Origin: a virus
DNA length: 47,389 nt
IMG/VR virus record: IMGVR_UViG_3300021197_001430
Location: 1-47,389 of that record
Reading direction: 5' to 3' (one strand)
Every line of letters starts with the position of its first letter. The stretch's first letter is position 1. A program made the position numbers and the translations under genes. Of this stretch, positions 12,434 through 41,389 are shown piece by piece. The notes beneath the pieces are model-generated. The model was not told where the DNA came from. It saw only the letters and a list, made by a program, of their open reading frames with translations, and searched no databases.

Positions 12434-15400
12434 ATGCCTATTGAGTTTAGAACAAGAACAAAATCAATTCAACCAAACCCCAGTGATATTGGGGCTTGTT
12501 GTGTGTATAACGAAACCACATCATCTTATGATTGTTTTGGTAATGTAAAATATATTGATTGTAAACGTGATCTTGGTATATTTAGAGGTAAGGATTCTAA
12601 TTGTGATGACAACCCATGCCCAACATCTGGTACGCCAGGTGGTCAGGGTTTATCGCCACTGCAATCAGATCAACATGGTGCATGTAAAACTTGTTCAACA
12701 TGTACTGATAATGTTTTAGAAGAAAAATGTATAACTCAAGATAACTTTGATGCTGAATTCTTCGGCGGTAAAGTTTGCACTCAGGTAGTAAATCAAAAAT
12801 TATCATCAATACTTACTGCATCGTATGGTTGTTGTATTGATGATGGATGTTTTGATACATGTAACCCATCTTACTGTTCTTCGTTAGGTGGAATATTACA
12901 TGATGGTGTAAATACAGACCTTGCTATGAACTGCAATTCAAATCCATGCAGTTCTATGGAGGAAAGTAATCAAGTATTATTAGGTGCTTGCTGTAAATCA
13001 GGAAGTTCTATAGGAAATTTAACCAAGTATGATTGCGAAAGAAACTATGGATCTTGGAAAGGAGTTGGAACTGATTCTACAAATTATAGTTGCTCCAATG
13101 ATGCATTAATTGGATCTGTTAATAATATAAATTCACAAGATCCAGTTTCTAGTGTAGAGGGCTTTCAAATTGTATGTTCTAAACCTACACCAAGAAAATA
13201 TTATAACATGGACGGTGGTTTATGGAATAATACAATAGGACCAACCTATGGCAGAGAAGCCGTTATTGTTGAACTACATGAAACCGCACAGAGTTGTGAA
13301 GACATGGGTGGTATCGTTAGTGCAACAGATGGTGATATCGATAAAGCAATAATGTGGGGCGGTTGTCAATGGCATGATGGTAATCTTAATATATGGAAGT
13401 GTGAATCAAAAACATACGAACAATGTGCAGGAATAAGTGGTAGTTGGACAGCGGGTATTTACTGTGATGATATAAGATCTGCACCAGCCAGTGGATTGTA
13501 TTTTGCTGAATACTTACCAACAGGTGTTGATCAGCAAGAAAAATACTTAGCAGGAAGATGTTATATAATAGACAAAGTTACAAATCCATCAACTAATCCA
13601 GATTTAAATACTAAATGCGCCGACTATTTGACAGAGTATCAATGCGCACAACAAGTTCAAGTAATACTGGATCGTTATCTCATAATGATTGAAGATGGTA
13701 CTAATGTAGGATGGGACGAATCTAATCTCGGCGAAGATAATCTCACAAGTATATGGGAAGCCGGTAAAAGATGTTCCGATTGTGTAGATGAAAGTCAACT
13801 TCCCATAACAGATTATACTGTTGGATTGTGTATATTAGATCCAATACAAACAGGTTCTTATATGAATACAGATTCAGATGGATCTTTCGGTGTTCCTACA
13901 GACTATAATTATAAAACAAGCAATCAATCTGCTTGTATGTCTGGTTATAATAGAACCGATTGTCTGTCGATGCATGGAACTTGGATTAATACCTGTGACA
14001 CATGTGAAGAGCATGATCAGGATCTTCCTATTCCAGTAGAAACTGGTTCTTGTTGCCAATCATCATCTAGTTGTTTAGATGGTAAAACATATAGTGAGTG
14101 TGAGAATTTGGTGCCAAGGGGATACTTCCACGGACCTGGAACGACTTGTGTAGGAAGAGATTGTTCGATGGTTGCATATCTCGACGACCGGAACGCGGCC
14201 CAAATCTCTCCTGCGAAATGTAGTTGTAAGGTTAGTGATAATCCGAATCCAAACGATGACACTATTACAGAAATTTTTGCTAATTCATCTGAACAGGGAA
14301 CCAACTTGTGGTCTGGATCAACCTGTGGTGATCCGACTGTAAACGCTGTTCCATATTGGAGAGAGAGTAATAATTTTGCTACTGACATATTAGTTAACTA
14401 TAGGGATAATGTCACAATTAATGGTAGTAAATTTATAAATTCACAGAGTGTAGATGCAGCAAGATATAATATTGAAGGTACTAGTGCAGTTTTTAGAAAT
14501 TTCATTACTACAGGAATAGATGGTGGTACTGGATCTTTCCTTGATGAGATGCTAATTCAAAATGAGCAAACTTGTTACTTTAGAGTAGACGACAAGGCTC
14601 CTATTCTTATACCAAAAACAAAAGAAACTTTGAGCAGAATATATGGAAAAACATTACAAACGAATCAGCCAGCAAAGTCTATCTATACTTTAATTCTAAA
14701 TCATCCAAGGTTTGGATGGGACGATGGACCTATCCCTAGAGATAGAAAAATTACCTTTGTTAATCTTGCTGGTATGGAGGAACTGCGTATTTTTGCTGTC
14801 CAAGGAAATAACTGGACAACACTACAAAGTGATTTTGAGAGTAAGTCATTCCCTCTCCTTAGAGTTCTAGATTTAAGAACTAGTAATCTTGAGGGGTTGG
14901 ACTTAACAAAATGTGAAGCAATAGAAGAACTTAATTTAAATAATAATAATATTACAACTCTAGATCTAAGTGGAAATGATTACATGACAAATCTAGATGT
15001 TTCATATAACAAAAAGTTATCGACATTAGATTTGGGTACTGGTATTAAGAAGTATTTTACTAAAATAAATGCAAACTACAATGATGCATTTACCGGGTTG
15101 GGTAATACTGTCAATCCTGATATTGGGGCAATATGTCCTCAACTAGTACACTTTTCTGCTTTGAGATGTAGTATTGCTGATATGGAATTTTCTAATATGC
15201 CTTATCTTGAGTATATTGATCTAACAGGAAATTCTTTACAAACACTAGTTATCGAAAGAACACCATCGATAGAAACAATTGCTTTAGATTCAACTGTAAC
15301 TAGTTCTGCAACATTGCGTAACTGGAGACTTCCAGATTCGACTAACAGAATAATAATTGAGGCTGATTGGCCAACGGATCTCAGTGATGCTGTTATTCCT

Positions 15401-15847
15401 AGTCCAAATACAATTCGATACTTTACATTTAAGAAGAATACAATTCCAGATGATGGTGTTAATACTGCAAACTTCATTATAAAATTAGCAAAGACAACAG
15501 CAATAACAAGTCTAATAGAATTTGATAGAACCACTTTCCCACCCTTATCTACGCCAATTGGTAGTTATGATGGTTCAATTTCTTCTTTGTCTATAGATTT
15601 TAGTAATGCTATTGTCTCACCATACGAAGATGATAATGGTACTACTAATACAATAAAGGAATTTCTATTATACCTATTTGGAAATGCTGAACTCACTGAC
15701 ATAACTCATGATGAAAGAATAGAAATAAGATTGACAAATATAAATAAGGATGTACAATCATATGAAGAGGCCGAGGCCACGCGACAAATCATTATAGATG
15801 CCCTTCAGGGTCTTGTTATTAGTTCACGGTTATCAATAATTACTTAA
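12434..15847 (+). CDS. cysteine-module fibre protein with C-terminal leucine-rich repeats
   Basis: This 1137-residue protein lacks the collagen head of its neighbours but starts almost directly with a cysteine module (DIGACCVYN). Further modules recur at YGCCIDDGC, LLGACCKSG and ETGSCCQSS over residues about 15-590. From about residue 775 to 1000 it turns into leucine-rich repeats: LRVLDLRTSNLEGLDL, IEELNLNNNNITTLDL, NLDVSYNKKLSTLDL and YIDLTGNSLQTL. These form a curved binding surface in known LRR proteins, including bacterial adhesins. The last 130 residues are mixed and end in a helical-looking segment. GAGAAGGTGAC precedes the ATG. A virion host-contact role is inferred from position and modules; an effector role cannot be excluded. 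Confidence 0.65.
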   Translation: MPIEFRTRTKSIQPNPSDIGACCVYNETTSSYDCFGNVKYIDCKRDLGIFRGKDSNCDDNPCPTSGTPGGQGLSPLQSDQHGACKTCSTCTDNVLEEKCITQDNFDAEFFGGKVCTQVVNQKLSSILTASYGCCIDDGCFDTCNPSYCSSLGGILHDGVNTDLAMNCNSNPCSSMEESNQVLLGACCKSGSSIGNLTKYDCERNYGSWKGVGTDSTNYSCSNDALIGSVNNINSQDPVSSVEGFQIVCSKPTPRKYYNMDGGLWNNTIGPTYGREAVIVELHETAQSCEDMGGIVSATDGDIDKAIMWGGCQWHDGNLNIWKCESKTYEQCAGISGSWTAGIYCDDIRSAPASGLYFAEYLPTGVDQQEKYLAGRCYIIDKVTNPSTNPDLNTKCADYLTEYQCAQQVQVILDRYLIMIEDGTNVGWDESNLGEDNLTSIWEAGKRCSDCVDESQLPITDYTVGLCILDPIQTGSYMNTDSDGSFGVPTDYNYKTSNQSACMSGYNRTDCLSMHGTWINTCDTCEEHDQDLPIPVETGSCCQSSSSCLDGKTYSECENLVPRGYFHGPGTTCVGRDCSMVAYLDDRNAAQISPAKCSCKVSDNPNPNDDTITEIFANSSEQGTNLWSGSTCGDPTVNAVPYWRESNNFATDILVNYRDNVTINGSKFINSQSVDAARYNIEGTSAVFRNFITTGIDGGTGSFLDEMLIQNEQTCYFRVDDKAPILIPKTKETLSRIYGKTLQTNQPAKSIYTLILNHPRFGWDDGPIPRDRKITFVNLAGMEELRIFAVQGNNWTTLQSDFESKSFPLLRVLDLRTSNLEGLDLTKCEAIEELNLNNNNITTLDLSGNDYMTNLDVSYNKKLSTLDLGTGIKKYFTKINANYNDAFTGLGNTVNPDIGAICPQLVHFSALRCSIADMEFSNMPYLEYIDLTGNSLQTLVIERTPSIETIALDSTVTSSATLRNWRLPDSTNRIIIEADWPTDLSDAVIPSPNTIRYFTFKKNTIPDDGVNTANFIIKLAKTTAITSLIEFDRTTFPPLSTPIGSYDGSISSLSIDFSNAIVSPYEDDNGTTNTIKEFLLYLFGNAELTDITHDERIEIRLTNINKDVQSYEEAEATRQIIIDALQGLVISSRLSIIT

Positions 15848-15857
15848 TGGAGGATTT

Positions 15858-16382
15858 ATGTCTCAAAAAGATATCAATTCGAGAATAGAAAAATCAAATC
15901 AAAAAAAAGATGTAAAATTTGCACCTGCAAAGGATCTAGGAAAGAAAACTCTAAAAGACAGAATCGGTATGGTCGGTTCTTACGCTGCTGCAATGGCATC
16001 ACGGGGTCTTTCTAATAATAGAATAGACAAAAAAACGAAGCAACTTAGAGTTCTTTCTTGTCATGGACAAGGTGAACTTCCTCCATGCGAATATTTAAAG
16101 AAAAGTAAAATAGATCCAACAAAGAATTACTGTGGTGGGTGTGGGTGTGGCGATAGAAAGGCAACATGGTTAGTATCTAATGAAGATCATTATAGTAAAT
16201 TAGATCATCCTAAGTTATCTTGTCCTCTCAATATGCCTGGTTTTACTAACTACGAAACATCTTCTATTGGCGAGTCAAAAGCACCTATCACTAGAAGATA
16301 TTATATCGAGCAAATGGAAATGGAAGATGTAGAAAAGGTTTCAGTAACCATCAACGGATCACCTCCTCCTCCTAGTAAATAA
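15858..16382 (+). CDS. conserved-looking small Cys-cluster protein of unknown function
   Basis: I do not recognise a named family. The 174-residue protein has a basic, helical N-terminus (residues 1-60, with SYAAAMASRGLS) and a central cysteine cluster: Cys68, Cys77, CGGCGC at 92-97 and Cys122, with several histidines nearby. This would fit a zinc or iron-sulphur site. The C-terminus ends in a run of prolines (GSPPPPSK). It has a good ribosome-binding site (TGGAGGATTT) and sits between the fibre genes and the neck gene 13, so it may be a virion or assembly factor. The sequence itself gives no enzymatic motif. Confidence 0.6.
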   Translation: MSQKDINSRIEKSNQKKDVKFAPAKDLGKKTLKDRIGMVGSYAAAMASRGLSNNRIDKKTKQLRVLSCHGQGELPPCEYLKKSKIDPTKNYCGGCGCGDRKATWLVSNEDHYSKLDHPKLSCPLNMPGFTNYETSSIGESKAPITRRYYIEQMEMEDVEKVSVTINGSPPPPSK

Positions 16383-16401
16383 AGCGATACATACATTCTA
16401 T

Positions 16402-16441
16402 ATCTCCTATGTTCTTATACATACTTAAGAACATAGGAGAT
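16402..16441 (+). promoter_or_regulatory. hairpin sequestering the gene 13 ribosome-binding site, with embedded TATACATA octamer
   Basis: A perfect 16-bp inverted repeat (left arm 16402-16417, right arm 16426-16441, 8-base loop) contains the AGGAGAT ribosome-binding site of gene 13 in its right arm. The octamer TATACATA lies at 16416-16423. If it acts as a late promoter, transcription would start near 16429, inside the right arm, leaving the site free. Read-through mRNA from upstream would fold it shut. The four T residues after the stem are too few for a convincing terminator. Confidence 0.75.
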
Positions 16442-16447
16442 TTTAAC

Positions 16448-17254
16448 ATGGCAAGCGTGTCTTCCAGAGAGCAACTTATTGATTATGCTATGCGTAAACT
16501 TGGCGCGCCTGTCGTTGAAATCAATGTAGATTATCAGCAGGCCGAAGATCGACTAGACGAAGCATTAGACTTTTTCACAGAAAGACATTTTGATGGCGTC
16601 GAAAGATGTTATTTTAAGCATCAAATTACCGCAACTGATGTAACCAATGGTTATATTACAACCACAGACATAGGTCCAGTAGATGGTCCTACAGGAAATG
16701 GTCCTAGTGGTAAGGACATTGTTAGTGTGGTGAGAGTTCTTAGATTTGAATCAGGAACTGTTAACATGTTTAATGTTAGATACCAATGGGCATTGAATGA
16801 TATGTTTGGTGTTAACCGAGGATTAGCAGGTGGAGGAGGAGCAGAACCCCTTGCTGCTTATGATTCCTTCCGTAGATATAATAGTCTCATCCAAGATTTC
16901 TTTAGTCCAGACAAATCAATTCGCTTTAGTAAAGTAACAGATAAGATTCATATCGATATGGATTGGTCAGAAGCAACAACCGTTGGTGAATATCTGTGTG
17001 TTGAAGCATACGCTGCTTTAGATCCTATCATATACACTAAGATTTTCGATGATCGAATGGTGAAGAAATATTTCACAGCCCTACTCAAGAAGCAATGGGG
17101 TATGAACATGCTCAAGTATGATGGTATTCAATTACCTGGCGGAGTTAGTCTAAAGGGTGGAGAGATTTATCAACAAGCCGAACAAGAGGTAGAAAAACTC
17201 GAAGAAGAGATATTAGGACAATACGAACTCCCAGTAGATTTCATGACAGGGTAA
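16448..17254 (+). CDS. gp13: neck protein gp13 (head completion)
   Basis: The 268-residue product resembles T4 gp13, which with gp14 forms the neck that closes the filled head and receives the tail. The most telling part is the N-terminus: REQLIDYAMRKLGAPVVEIN followed by DRLDEALDFF, the helical start of this family. T4 gp13 is somewhat longer (309). An in-frame ATG lies upstream at 16409 but falls inside the hairpin. The ATG at 16448 is chosen because AGGAGAT sits 6 bases before it and the family N-terminus begins there. Gene 14 follows after 3 bases, as in T4. Confidence 0.88.
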   Translation: MASVSSREQLIDYAMRKLGAPVVEINVDYQQAEDRLDEALDFFTERHFDGVERCYFKHQITATDVTNGYITTTDIGPVDGPTGNGPSGKDIVSVVRVLRFESGTVNMFNVRYQWALNDMFGVNRGLAGGGGAEPLAAYDSFRRYNSLIQDFFSPDKSIRFSKVTDKIHIDMDWSEATTVGEYLCVEAYAALDPIIYTKIFDDRMVKKYFTALLKKQWGMNMLKYDGIQLPGGVSLKGGEIYQQAEQEVEKLEEEILGQYELPVDFMTG

Positions 17255-28714: not shown

Positions 28715-28747
28715 CACAGCCTCCCTCACGGGGGGCTGTGTTTTTTT
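28715..28747 (+). terminator. intrinsic terminator after gene 23
   Basis: CACAGCCTCCC and GGGGGGCTGTG form an 11-bp stem (one G-T pair) around a 4-base loop, directly followed by seven T. It sits 28 bases after the gp23 stop and is the only convincing rho-independent terminator in the window. It separates the head/tail operon from the virion gene and uvsY downstream. Confidence 0.93.
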
Positions 28748-28748
28748 G

Positions 28749-28756
28749 TATACATA
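28749..28756 (+). promoter_or_regulatory. candidate variant late promoter (TATACATA) after the terminator
   Basis: TATACATA immediately follows the terminator T-run and lies 17 bases before the ATG at 28774. T4-type spacing would start RNA near 28762, just before the TTGGAGAT ribosome-binding site. A promoter is expected here because the terminator isolates this gene. Confidence 0.45.
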
Positions 28757-29705: not shown

Positions 29706-29728
29706 CTCATATACATATAGTGTATGAG
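29706..29728 (+). promoter_or_regulatory. start-codon hairpin of uvsW with embedded TATACATA octamer
   Basis: CTCATATAC and GTGTATGAG pair over 9 bp (one G-U) around a 5-base loop, and the uvsW ATG (29724-29726) is buried in the right arm. TATACATA lies at 29710-29717 and would start RNA at about 29723, next to the ATG, giving an almost leaderless message. No ribosome-binding site is visible before this ATG. Confidence 0.6.
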
Positions 29729-31223
29729 TGATATTTCTGTTCTACATCTAGATTCCGTATATGTAAAATTGGATTGTGAGAGGTGGATAGCAAAAGAGTT
29801 ATCTGACTTCTTCACGTTCAAGGTGCCAAATCACGAGTTCAGTCCCGCTTACAAAAAGAAGCAGTGGGACGGCACTATCAAATTATTCAACCTATACAAG
29901 CAGACTATCTACCGAGGTTTACTGGATTATGTCATTCAGTTCGCTAAGGATAGAAATTATAGTATCCAGTTAGAGGAAACGCTGAAGGACTCTCTACCGT
30001 CCTCAGAGTTCTCTCAGAGCGACGTTACGGAGTTTATCGACTCCCTGTCCATCGTAGCAAATAATAAAGCAATTAAACCACACTTACATCAAGTGAATGC
30101 TATCCAACACGCACTAAACACCAAGAGATGTCTCCTGCTGTCTCCTACTGCGTCTGGGAAGTCGCTGATCATCTACACGTTGATGCGTTACTATATGGAA
30201 CTGCTCCCTCCAGATAAGAAGTTGTTGATCATTGTTCCAACCACAGGACTAGTATCACAGATGCTCGAAGACTTTAAAGACTATTCGTCTAATGACGATT
30301 GGGATTGTATGTCAAATTGTCACCAAGTGTTTAGTGGGCAGTCAAAAGAAACAGACAAGAGAATTATCATCTCAACTTGGCAAAGTTTGTATCAAATGCC
30401 AAAAGAATATTTTTCAAAATTCGGTTGTGTTTTTGGAGACGAATGCCATTTGTTTAAAGCCAAATCACTTTCGACTCTAATGTCGAATCTAGATGACTGC
30501 TATTACCGAATAGGAACAACAGGAACTCTCGACGGAACACAGACACACAAACTTGTAATCGAAGGACTCTTTGGTAGAGTGTTTCAGGTTACAACAACCA
30601 AGAACCTAATGGATAAGAAACTCCTATCGACTTTGGATATCAACTGCCTTGTGCTACAATATACCAAGGACGAGAAGGAGTTTATGAAGAGAAAAAAATA
30701 TCAGGATGAAATAGAATGGATTGTTACTCATGGAAAGAGAAACCAGTTTATTGCTGAACTAACCAACAGGTTAAAGGGTAATACTCTAGTCCTCTTCAAC
30801 TATGTGGAGAAGCACGGGAAACCGTTGTATGAATTGATTAGTCAAGGAGATAAAGAGACTTTCCTCATACACGGAGCAACAGATGTCATACAACGGGAAG
30901 AGATTCGCAAGATCGTTGATAGGAAAACTAACTCGGTTCTGGTCGCGTCTTACGGAACCTGCTCTACTGGCATTAATATTAGGAATATTGATAACATTGT
31001 TTTCGCTAGCCCTTCTAAATCTGTTGTAAGAGTTCTTCAAAGTATTGGTAGAGGATTGAGAAAAACAGAAAGGAAGAATAAAGTTAAGTTGTTTGATCTT
31101 TCAGATGATCTCACATTAGGAAAATATGAAAATCATACCTTTAGACATTTGAACGAAAGAATTAAAATATATACTAATGAGAAGTTTGATTATGAGTTAT
31201 CTAAAATACATTTAAGGAGATGA
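29724..31223 (+). CDS. uvsW: DNA/RNA helicase UvsW
   Basis: This 499-residue SF2 helicase matches T4 UvsW (502), which unwinds R-loops and branched DNA and shifts replication from origin to recombination-dependent mode. The N-terminal domain (VKLDCERWIAKELSDFFTF, KKKQWDGTIKLF) is the UvsW-specific DNA-binding region. Helicase motifs: Q-like HLHQVNAIQHAL, Walker A PTASGKS (141-147), DECH (239-242), GTTGTLDG, then VASYGTCSTGINIRNI and QSIGRGLRKT. The start is fixed by alignment of the N-terminus with T4. The Lsm gene overlaps its stop region through a shared AGGAGATGA. Confidence 0.94.
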   Translation: MSDISVLHLDSVYVKLDCERWIAKELSDFFTFKVPNHEFSPAYKKKQWDGTIKLFNLYKQTIYRGLLDYVIQFAKDRNYSIQLEETLKDSLPSSEFSQSDVTEFIDSLSIVANNKAIKPHLHQVNAIQHALNTKRCLLLSPTASGKSLIIYTLMRYYMELLPPDKKLLIIVPTTGLVSQMLEDFKDYSSNDDWDCMSNCHQVFSGQSKETDKRIIISTWQSLYQMPKEYFSKFGCVFGDECHLFKAKSLSTLMSNLDDCYYRIGTTGTLDGTQTHKLVIEGLFGRVFQVTTTKNLMDKKLLSTLDINCLVLQYTKDEKEFMKRKKYQDEIEWIVTHGKRNQFIAELTNRLKGNTLVLFNYVEKHGKPLYELISQGDKETFLIHGATDVIQREEIRKIVDRKTNSVLVASYGTCSTGINIRNIDNIVFASPSKSVVRVLQSIGRGLRKTERKNKVKLFDLSDDLTLGKYENHTFRHLNERIKIYTNEKFDYELSKIHLRR

Positions 31224-32461: not shown

Positions 32462-32544
32462 TATAACCGGTGTTTCTAGAGGGATTCTTTTTCGTCTTCA
32501 CAAGTGAAATTATATGGGTAAACTGGAAACTGTCAAGGAAAAAC

Positions 32545-32572
32545 TTGACAATAATTATTTTCAGTGTATAGT
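32545..32572 (+). promoter_or_regulatory. sigma70-like promoter for gene 55
   Basis: TTGACA (32545-32550) and TATAGT (32567-32572) are separated by 16 bases. Transcription would start near 32579, where AAAGGA begins, giving a very short leader before the gp55 ATG at 32592. This would let the host polymerase make the late sigma factor early. Confidence 0.7.
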
Positions 32573-32591
32573 ATGTTCAAAGGATATATTT

Positions 32592-33164
32592 ATGGCCAAG
32601 AAGAAAAGCACAAATCATTATATCGATAACAAATTGTTCTTCGAGAAAATGTCCGAGTGGAAAGAATTAGTGATACTCGCCGAAGAAAATGGTGACCCAA
32701 AGCCTCCAATGACAGAGTATATTGGCACTTGCTTTATCAAGATTGCTACCAATCTAGCAATGAAGCCTAACTTTATGAACTATTCTTTTGTGGATGAAAT
32801 GATTGGGGATGCTATTGAGAATTGTATTCTCTACGCACATAATTTCAATCCAGAGAAGTCAAAGAATCCTTTCTCATATTTTACACAGATCATCTATTAT
32901 GCCTTTCTTCGCCGTATCGAAAAGGAGAAGAAGCAATCTTATGTTAAGTTTAAGATGATTGAAGAGGGAGATCATTCTGGTGGAATTTATAAGTGGTTCA
33001 AAGAAAACTACTTCGAGAAGAATCCAGATCAGGCAATGAAAGAGTTCTTTCAGTTAAATGATAATGATATTAAGAAGTTTCAGCCAAAGAAGAGTAAGAA
33101 GAAAACTCAAGCCGGCTTGACTTCTTGTTTTGAGGATGTAAATGAAGATAGCAATAATCTCTGA
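32592..33164 (+). CDS. gp55: late-transcription sigma factor gp55
   Basis: The 190-residue product corresponds to T4 gp55 (185), the small sigma-family protein that directs host RNA polymerase to TATAAATA late promoters together with clamp gp45. Matching blocks: N-terminal YIDNKLFFEKMSEWK, CFIKIATNLAMKPNFMNYSF, MIGDAIENCILYAHNFNPEKSKNPFSYFTQIIYYAFLRRIEKEKKQ (read in pieces; compare [21 protein letters not shown] and FVQRIKKERKE of T4). An in-frame ATG at 32514 lies upstream of the sigma70-like promoter; the ATG at 32592 behind AAAGGA gives the family length. The end overlaps gene 47 by 23 bases. Confidence 0.92.
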   Translation: MAKKKSTNHYIDNKLFFEKMSEWKELVILAEENGDPKPPMTEYIGTCFIKIATNLAMKPNFMNYSFVDEMIGDAIENCILYAHNFNPEKSKNPFSYFTQIIYYAFLRRIEKEKKQSYVKFKMIEEGDHSGGIYKWFKENYFEKNPDQAMKEFFQLNDNDIKKFQPKKSKKKTQAGLTSCFEDVNEDSNNL

Positions 33165-40638: not shown

Positions 40639-40646
40639 TATAAATA
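40639..40646 (+). promoter_or_regulatory. T4-type late promoter (TATAAATA) directly before a fibre gene
   Basis: An exact late octamer lies in the 69-base gap after the GC-richer gene. T4-type spacing would start RNA at about 40652, exactly the A of the next ATG, so the message may be leaderless. No ribosome-binding site is visible before that ATG. Confidence 0.75.
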
Positions 40647-40651
40647 CTAGT

Positions 40652-41389
40652 ATGACACAGTTTCCAAATAGTCCATCAGTCGGCGATAAAGTAACTTTCA
40701 ATGATGCTACCTATGAATGGGATGGCAATCGTTGGAAGTCTCTCGGAACTATTGCTGTTGGTCCTACAGGTGCTACTGGTCCTCAAGGGACTATAGGTAA
40801 CACTGGACCCACTGGTGCAACTGGTGCTACAGGTTCTGGTTATAGCAGTGCTTCGATAGTTGGTGTTACTCTTCAGATGACGTTCCAAGCAGCAGGAGTT
40901 GGTTTCGGTTCGACGCAAATTATAGGTAGAGTAGTTGGTGCTACTGGTAGTGATGGATCCGCTGGTGTTACTGGACCTACTGGGCCTACTGGTCCGACTG
41001 AACCTGAATATATTGTAGGATTTAATTTTGATGGACAAGGAACAGATCTAGCAATACAAGTCTATACTGATTTCGTAAGACCTATTGAAGTAGCAGGAAC
41101 AGCCACTGAATTTATAATCCGTTCTCCAACTCCAGTTTCTGGAGGTGTTCGATGCTCGTTTAGGAAAGTTCCTTCTAGTTATATTGGAGCGTCTGGTGCT
41201 TCTTTAGATGCAGATGCTACGACAATAGGTGGTAGTTTTATAATGCTAGGATCAGGGGAAGGCGGCACTATCGGAGTGCCTGGTGGTAGTAATACTAATC
41301 TAAATGCTGGTGACTTAATCTTTATGGACTTTGCTGGATCTGGATTGAAGGATAAGTTGCAATGTTCAATGCGGTATAGGGGTTCATAA
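40652..41389 (+). CDS. collagen-like virion/fibre protein
   Basis: This 245-residue protein begins MTQFPNSPSVGDKVTFNDATYEWDGNRWKSL, in segments a motif frequent at the N-termini of marine phage virion proteins ('P..P.vGD...fn..tY.WdG..W'). Two collagen-like runs follow at residues 37-63 and 97-118. The rest is beta-rich (EFIIRSPTPVSGGVRCSFRKVP and GGSFIMLGSGEGG). The late promoter immediately upstream marks it as late. The stop overlaps the start of the beta-helix gene (TAATG). Likely role: trimeric stalk or connector for the tailspike-like protein encoded next. Confidence 0.7.
   Translation: MTQFPNSPSVGDKVTFNDATYEWDGNRWKSLGTIAVGPTGATGPQGTIGNTGPTGATGATGSGYSSASIVGVTLQMTFQAAGVGFGSTQIIGRVVGATGSDGSAGVTGPTGPTGPTEPEYIVGFNFDGQGTDLAIQVYTDFVRPIEVAGTATEFIIRSPTPVSGGVRCSFRKVPSSYIGASGASLDADATTIGGSFIMLGSGEGGTIGVPGGSNTNLNAGDLIFMDFAGSGLKDKLQCSMRYRGS

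Follow-up and report, generated by a model that had tools for sequence, protein, structure and literature searches.

A putative promoter-linked translation switch before the neck protein gene 13 of an uncultured T4-like phage

In phage T4, the long early RNAs of gene e sequester the start region of the gene, and the late RNAs lack the 5' strand of this structure (PMC3014915). In a similar way the ribosome-binding sites of I-TevI, I-TevII and segB of T4 and of mobE of phage Aeh1 are sequestered by RNA structure on upstream-initiated RNA; in the case of I-TevI a late promoter lies immediately upstream, and the late RNA is too short to fold the structure (PMC2988022). The T4 examples that we came across act on genes for lysis, endonucleases, capsid decoration and recombination, and I-TevI, I-TevII, segB and mobE encode homing endonucleases situated inside or beside other genes, whereas the case described here is conserved and concerns a virion structural gene, the neck gene 13. 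The first-pass annotation had considered the layout unreported before a neck gene; in the open-access literature, to which the search was confined (subscription papers were outside its scope), no report of such a switch before gene 13 was found.

The DNA analysed, called the window in the following, comprises all 47,389 bp at positions 1-47,389 of the IMG/VR virus record IMGVR_UViG_3300021197_001430. The virus is an uncultured aquatic relative of phage T4. The window carries a T4-like structural and replication block (gp13, gp14, gp15, both terminase subunits, gp18, tail tube, portal, protease, scaffold, major capsid, UvsY, UvsW, gp55 and gp44), and the predicted genes of this block all lie on the plus strand. 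Gene 13 (16448-17254, plus strand) was assigned by a PHROG match to the neck protein or head-tail adaptor Ad2 (E 4e-34). Among the matches listed, its product shares at most about 40% identity with gp13 of named phages, mostly marine Kyanoviridae and Stenotrophomonas phages. A gp55-type late sigma factor is encoded at 32514-33164 on the plus strand (phrog_234, E 6e-54). Directly before gene 13 lies a conserved Cys-rich gene (15858-16382, plus strand). Its 174-aa product has no PHROG or Pfam match, and homologous sequence is present in 149 of the fetched loci.

Between these two genes the window contains a perfect inverted repeat on the plus strand. The left arm ATCTCCTATGTTCTTA (16402-16417) and the right arm TAAGAACATAGGAGAT (16426-16441) are 100% complementary over 16 bp and enclose a loop of 8 nt. 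The right arm contains AGGAGAT (16435-16441), the Shine-Dalgarno sequence of gene 13, which ends 6 nt before the ATG at 16448. The octamer TATACATA (16416-16423, plus strand), which is of the late-promoter type, overlaps the stem by two bases, and its other six lie in the loop. Both observations of the first-pass annotation, a 16-bp stem hiding the ribosome-binding site and an octamer straddling stem and loop, are thus borne out by direct reading and, for the stem, by a repeat finder. In the whole window this is the sole non-overlapping inverted repeat longer than 11 bp with arms at most 30 nt apart, and by a rough estimate from the base composition such a stem is expected by chance in 47 kb with a probability below one in a thousand. 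The RNA from 16395 to 16460 is predicted to fold with -26.8 kcal/mol, compared with -8.2 +/- 2.5 kcal/mol for shuffled sequences (z -7.3; 0 of 200 shuffles as good). A search of the window against Rfam gave nothing at or above the gathering score. An in-frame ATG at 16409 within the left arm was rejected as the start of gene 13; since it is not kept in relatives (the frame has a stop in L004 and a GTG in L018), 16448 is taken as the start codon.

For the octamer, the T4 gene e promoter offers a close comparison. There, too, a late promoter (TATAAATA) is situated immediately upstream of the Shine-Dalgarno sequence, but gene e is a lysis gene, its stem is unrelated and the octamer in the window is TATACATA. 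This octamer differs from the T4 consensus at one base; the late octamer of cyanophage S-PM2 is NATAAATA (PMC2984593). Judged by frequency alone, TATACATA is not significant, as its 3 matches in the window equal the count of about 3 expected by chance, and its weight comes from its position. All nine TATA[AC]ATA matches in the window lie on the coding strand. When the window and 19 stretches of four related contigs were counted together, 25 of 51 ATACATA and 44 of 121 ATAAATA occurrences were found at most 70 nt before the first ATG of an open reading frame of at least 100 aa, compared with 3-19% for permuted 7-mers, so that the enrichment of ATACATA before genes at least equals that of ATAAATA. 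At the gene 13 site the octamer is invariant within the clade of the window and its position is conserved as well. With gp55 encoded and the octamer enriched before gene starts, we infer that TATACATA is a candidate gp55 promoter. In T4, late transcription starts at the sixth base after the octamer; this spacing would place the start at 16429 on the plus strand, and RNA from there would be without the left arm.

The distance between the octamer end and the first ATG is bimodal, being either 4-6 nt or at least 13 nt, with none at 7-12 nt. At 40639-40652 and 29710-29724 of the window the predicted late start falls at or within 1-2 bases of the AUG, which would give leaderless late mRNAs, and the same placement is seen in nine gene 13 leaders (L026, L031, L034, L039, L040, L043, L049, L050 and L053).

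The predicted effect of the hairpin was expressed as the cost of opening the start region, comparing RNA that reaches past the left arm with RNA that starts six bases after the octamer. In the window this cost is 17.4 kcal/mol for the read-through RNA versus 4.1 kcal/mol for RNA from 16429, and in the relative G003, whose site ranked first by z score among the octamer sites surveyed, it is 17.8 versus 4.0 kcal/mol. The predicted late start falls 3' of the left arm, and the RNA from 16429 (folded up to 16480) forms only a weak structure no better than that of shuffled sequences. These predictions agree with the earlier proposal that upstream RNA would fold the site shut and that RNA starting at about 16429 would be translatable. 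A closely similar calculation for T4 gave 17.2 and 1.9 kcal/mol for the long and the late RNA of gene e, 14.7 and 3.2 kcal/mol for gene 49 and 13.1 and 0.4 kcal/mol for I-TevII; I-TevI, whose leader was truncated in the sequence used, gave no valid score. The long-RNA energies of gene e and gene 13 are nearly equal. Gene 49 resembles the window also in that a late-promoter-type octamer (AATAAATA) is part of the 5' arm, although it encodes a Holliday-junction endonuclease and has another stem. The T4 positive control soc, another precedent cited by the first-pass annotation, was not recovered by the opening-cost score. Shuffling with the octamer held fixed was dropped as the main score because it misses stems in which the octamer itself takes part in the pairing, such as that of T4 gene 49.

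We therefore propose, with a probability of roughly 0.74, that the hairpin works in cis as a translation switch linked to a promoter, of the type seen at T4 gene e. RNA started upstream would carry both arms and fold into the stable 16-bp hairpin that hides the Shine-Dalgarno sequence, and gene 13 would be poorly translated from this read-through RNA. RNA polymerase with gp55 would start at about 16429, directed by the octamer in the loop; on this late RNA, which would lack the left arm, AGGAG would be free and gene 13 translated. Since only the late RNA without the left arm would leave AGGAG free, gene 13 would depend on its own late promoter and be insulated from read-through. For T4 gene e, repression and start sites have been measured, whereas the gene 13 switch is proposed from sequence and predicted folds; from these we infer promoter activity, the position of the start, in vivo repression, and the origin and timing of the upstream RNA.

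Pairing is kept among close relatives. All fetched relatives at 76-87% gp13 identity with a readable upstream region keep the hairpin pairing, and in the clade of the window the stem always covers the Shine-Dalgarno sequence. Among seven distinct close homologues, 96.4% of the pair cells are standard pairs versus 38-55% when one arm is slid by 1-3 bases; two pairs have changed on both sides (UA to CG and AU to GC) and one shows a GU step. No relative that keeps the right arm but has lost pairing with the left, a pattern that would speak against the switch, was present among these seven sequences. Because the sample is small and the stem conserved, the close relatives by themselves give moderate evidence that the pairing is maintained by selection. 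The exact string of arm and octamer was found in 15 viral stretches, one of which (L094) covers a short part of the L021 contig; the 14 matched contigs are gene 13 relatives, and there is no evidence that the string is a mobile element.

The evidence from wider relatives is stronger. From three protein searches and the named phages, 169 regions upstream of gene 13 were collected and grouped into 63 clusters, 56 of which have a late octamer at most 75 nt upstream. A strong contiguous stem that spans the octamer and whose 5' arm precedes the predicted start is present in 23 of these 56 clusters versus 5 of 79 octamer sites before other genes (Fisher 2e-6). This value overstates independence and serves as a guide only, because clusters within a clade are related; the control sites come from five contigs, and the rule by which they were picked favours certain spacings. 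When duplex energies were used instead, 17 of the 56 clusters had p <= 0.01. The stems are of several kinds. A CTCCTATG-type stem over the Shine-Dalgarno sequence characterises the clade of the window, a GCCATGTTA-type stem lies over the AUG in L022 and L025, CTCC-type stems mask the Shine-Dalgarno sequence in another branch (L232, L233, L240 and L264), and a TTTTCCTTAT-type stem does so in L054. L232 resembles L018, which may reflect common descent. On the gp13 tree the label of a masked Shine-Dalgarno sequence needs three changes in the best tree, at least two of them forced by the starred branches. In six clusters (L028, L029, L230, L235, L266 and L351) a terminator directly precedes the octamer. 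No strong hairpin before gene 13 was seen in the pelagiphages and most freshwater clusters surveyed, and in T4 no late octamer is present in the 100 nt upstream of gene 13, wac and uvsW. As the relatives keep the layout, often with unrelated stems, the comparison suggests that the hairpin is a real switch.

A further form of leader occurs in cyanophages of the S-PM2 type (range L296-L355), where NATAAATA or CCTAAATA likewise lies in the loop of a 10-13-bp hairpin, here of the TCCCT type. Unlike in the window, 15-19 nt separate its 3' arm from the AUG, and a U tract comes after the arm, so that this hairpin is terminator-like and not masking the ribosome-binding site. Terminator-like hairpins with a late octamer in the loop were noted in the gene 13 leaders of L296, L297, L298, L316 and L355.

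These leaders bear on the main rival explanation, that the hairpin before gene 13 serves mainly as an intrinsic terminator of upstream transcription, that transcription restarts from the late promoter in the loop and that the Shine-Dalgarno sequence is hidden incidentally. We consider this improbable for the window. The S-PM2-type hairpin, GC-rich and ending well before the AUG, is what such a terminator would look like, and a true terminator does precede another TATACATA in the window: a canonical intrinsic terminator at 28715-28740 is followed by the octamer at 28749-28756 before the tail-tube gene (both plus strand), which is the other gating design in the same genome. At gene 13 the stem is followed by a U run of 4 nt, and in close relatives by 4 to 6 U in 8 nt, so that partial termination is possible. 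Yet the stem is AU-rich, its four U remain below the scan criterion of five T in eight and the terminator scan does not list it; in L003 and L005 the U run is broken (GGTTCTC) though the stem is intact. The short and broken U run argues against termination at this hairpin. Class B stems, moreover, lie over the AUG without a U tract, and the invariable position of the stem over the Shine-Dalgarno sequence in the clade of the window points the same way.

Stable hairpins near start codons can also protect or position mRNA 5' ends or mark processing sites in T4-type phages, and in T4 itself gene 13 is immediately preceded by a GGGGCCGCAAGGCCCC hairpin. That the hairpin of the window has such a role and is no switch appears very unlikely, as the stem covers the Shine-Dalgarno sequence and does not merely precede it, and lineages whose stems differ retain the octamer between the arms. 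Least probable of all is that a protein acting at the late promoter binds the palindrome as a double-stranded DNA operator, with RNA pairing as a by-product: I-TevI is autorepressed through an operator over its late promoter (PMC2988022), but between lineages the arm sequences are unrelated while complementarity is kept, and the 3' arm tracks the Shine-Dalgarno sequence or the AUG in the respective classes.

Because related phages do the same job with terminators, translation masking would be one of several solutions. The evidence is about evenly balanced on the broader reading that gene 13 is a conserved gate in aquatic T4-like phages, with the octamer either in a hairpin of interchangeable mechanism or after a terminator. 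The gate would then consist in masking of the Shine-Dalgarno sequence, in masking of the AUG or in an intrinsic terminator whose loop holds the promoter, and expression of the neck gene would have been insulated from read-through repeatedly. We read the gene 13 case as joining the T4 class of late-promoter and hairpin switches within this broader recurrent gate. Unrelated stems giving the same layout in other lineages would mean that phages have reason to silence gene 13 on read-through RNA, and harm to assembly from premature or excess neck protein becomes testable. The form with the promoter in the terminator loop, if true, would be a promoter removing its own terminator.

Whether the switch separates early from late expression depends on the upstream RNA. 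The co-directional gene upstream ends at 16382, and the terminator scan lists none between it and gene 13. A TATAAATA octamer is situated at 15739-15746 (plus strand) inside the open reading frame 12434-15847, two genes upstream of gene 13, and is overlapped by a sigma70-like sequence TTGACA-16-TACAAT (15731-15758). This octamer is kept in relatives, a conservation confounded with that of the coding sequence. It is a possible source of RNA reading into gene 13, and RNA entering from upstream may itself be late. Since late RNA could reach gene 13 from the 15739 site, the role of the hairpin may be to tie the gene to its own promoter and not to time it strictly; with a late promoter at 15739, it would separate two late units, not early from late.

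The layout yields a sequence rule by which uncultured phages can be searched for such switches, with the helicase gene uvsW (29724-31223, plus strand) as a second target, possibly controlled by a switch of the same type. Here a 9-bp CTCATATAC/GTGTATGAG hairpin (29706-29728, plus strand) includes the start codon at 29724, and TATACATA at 29710-29717 sits in its arm and loop. In relatives (L105, L114, L116 and L119) the uvsW start codon lies in or beside differing octamer hairpins, e.g. ACACCAT/ATGGTGT. This second case of the pattern in the window is weaker than that of gene 13. The promoters before gp18, the scaffold gene and the tail-tube gene of the window show no comparable mask. Two further arrangements were noted in other loci. 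At L193:16593 the overlapping late octamers of two divergent genes form part of a palindrome that could mask both start codons, and at L194:10589-10614 (contig G013) GATAAATA lies inside a ATACTCAACT/AGTTGAGTAT hairpin that covers the AUG of a phrog_455 gene of 400 aa.
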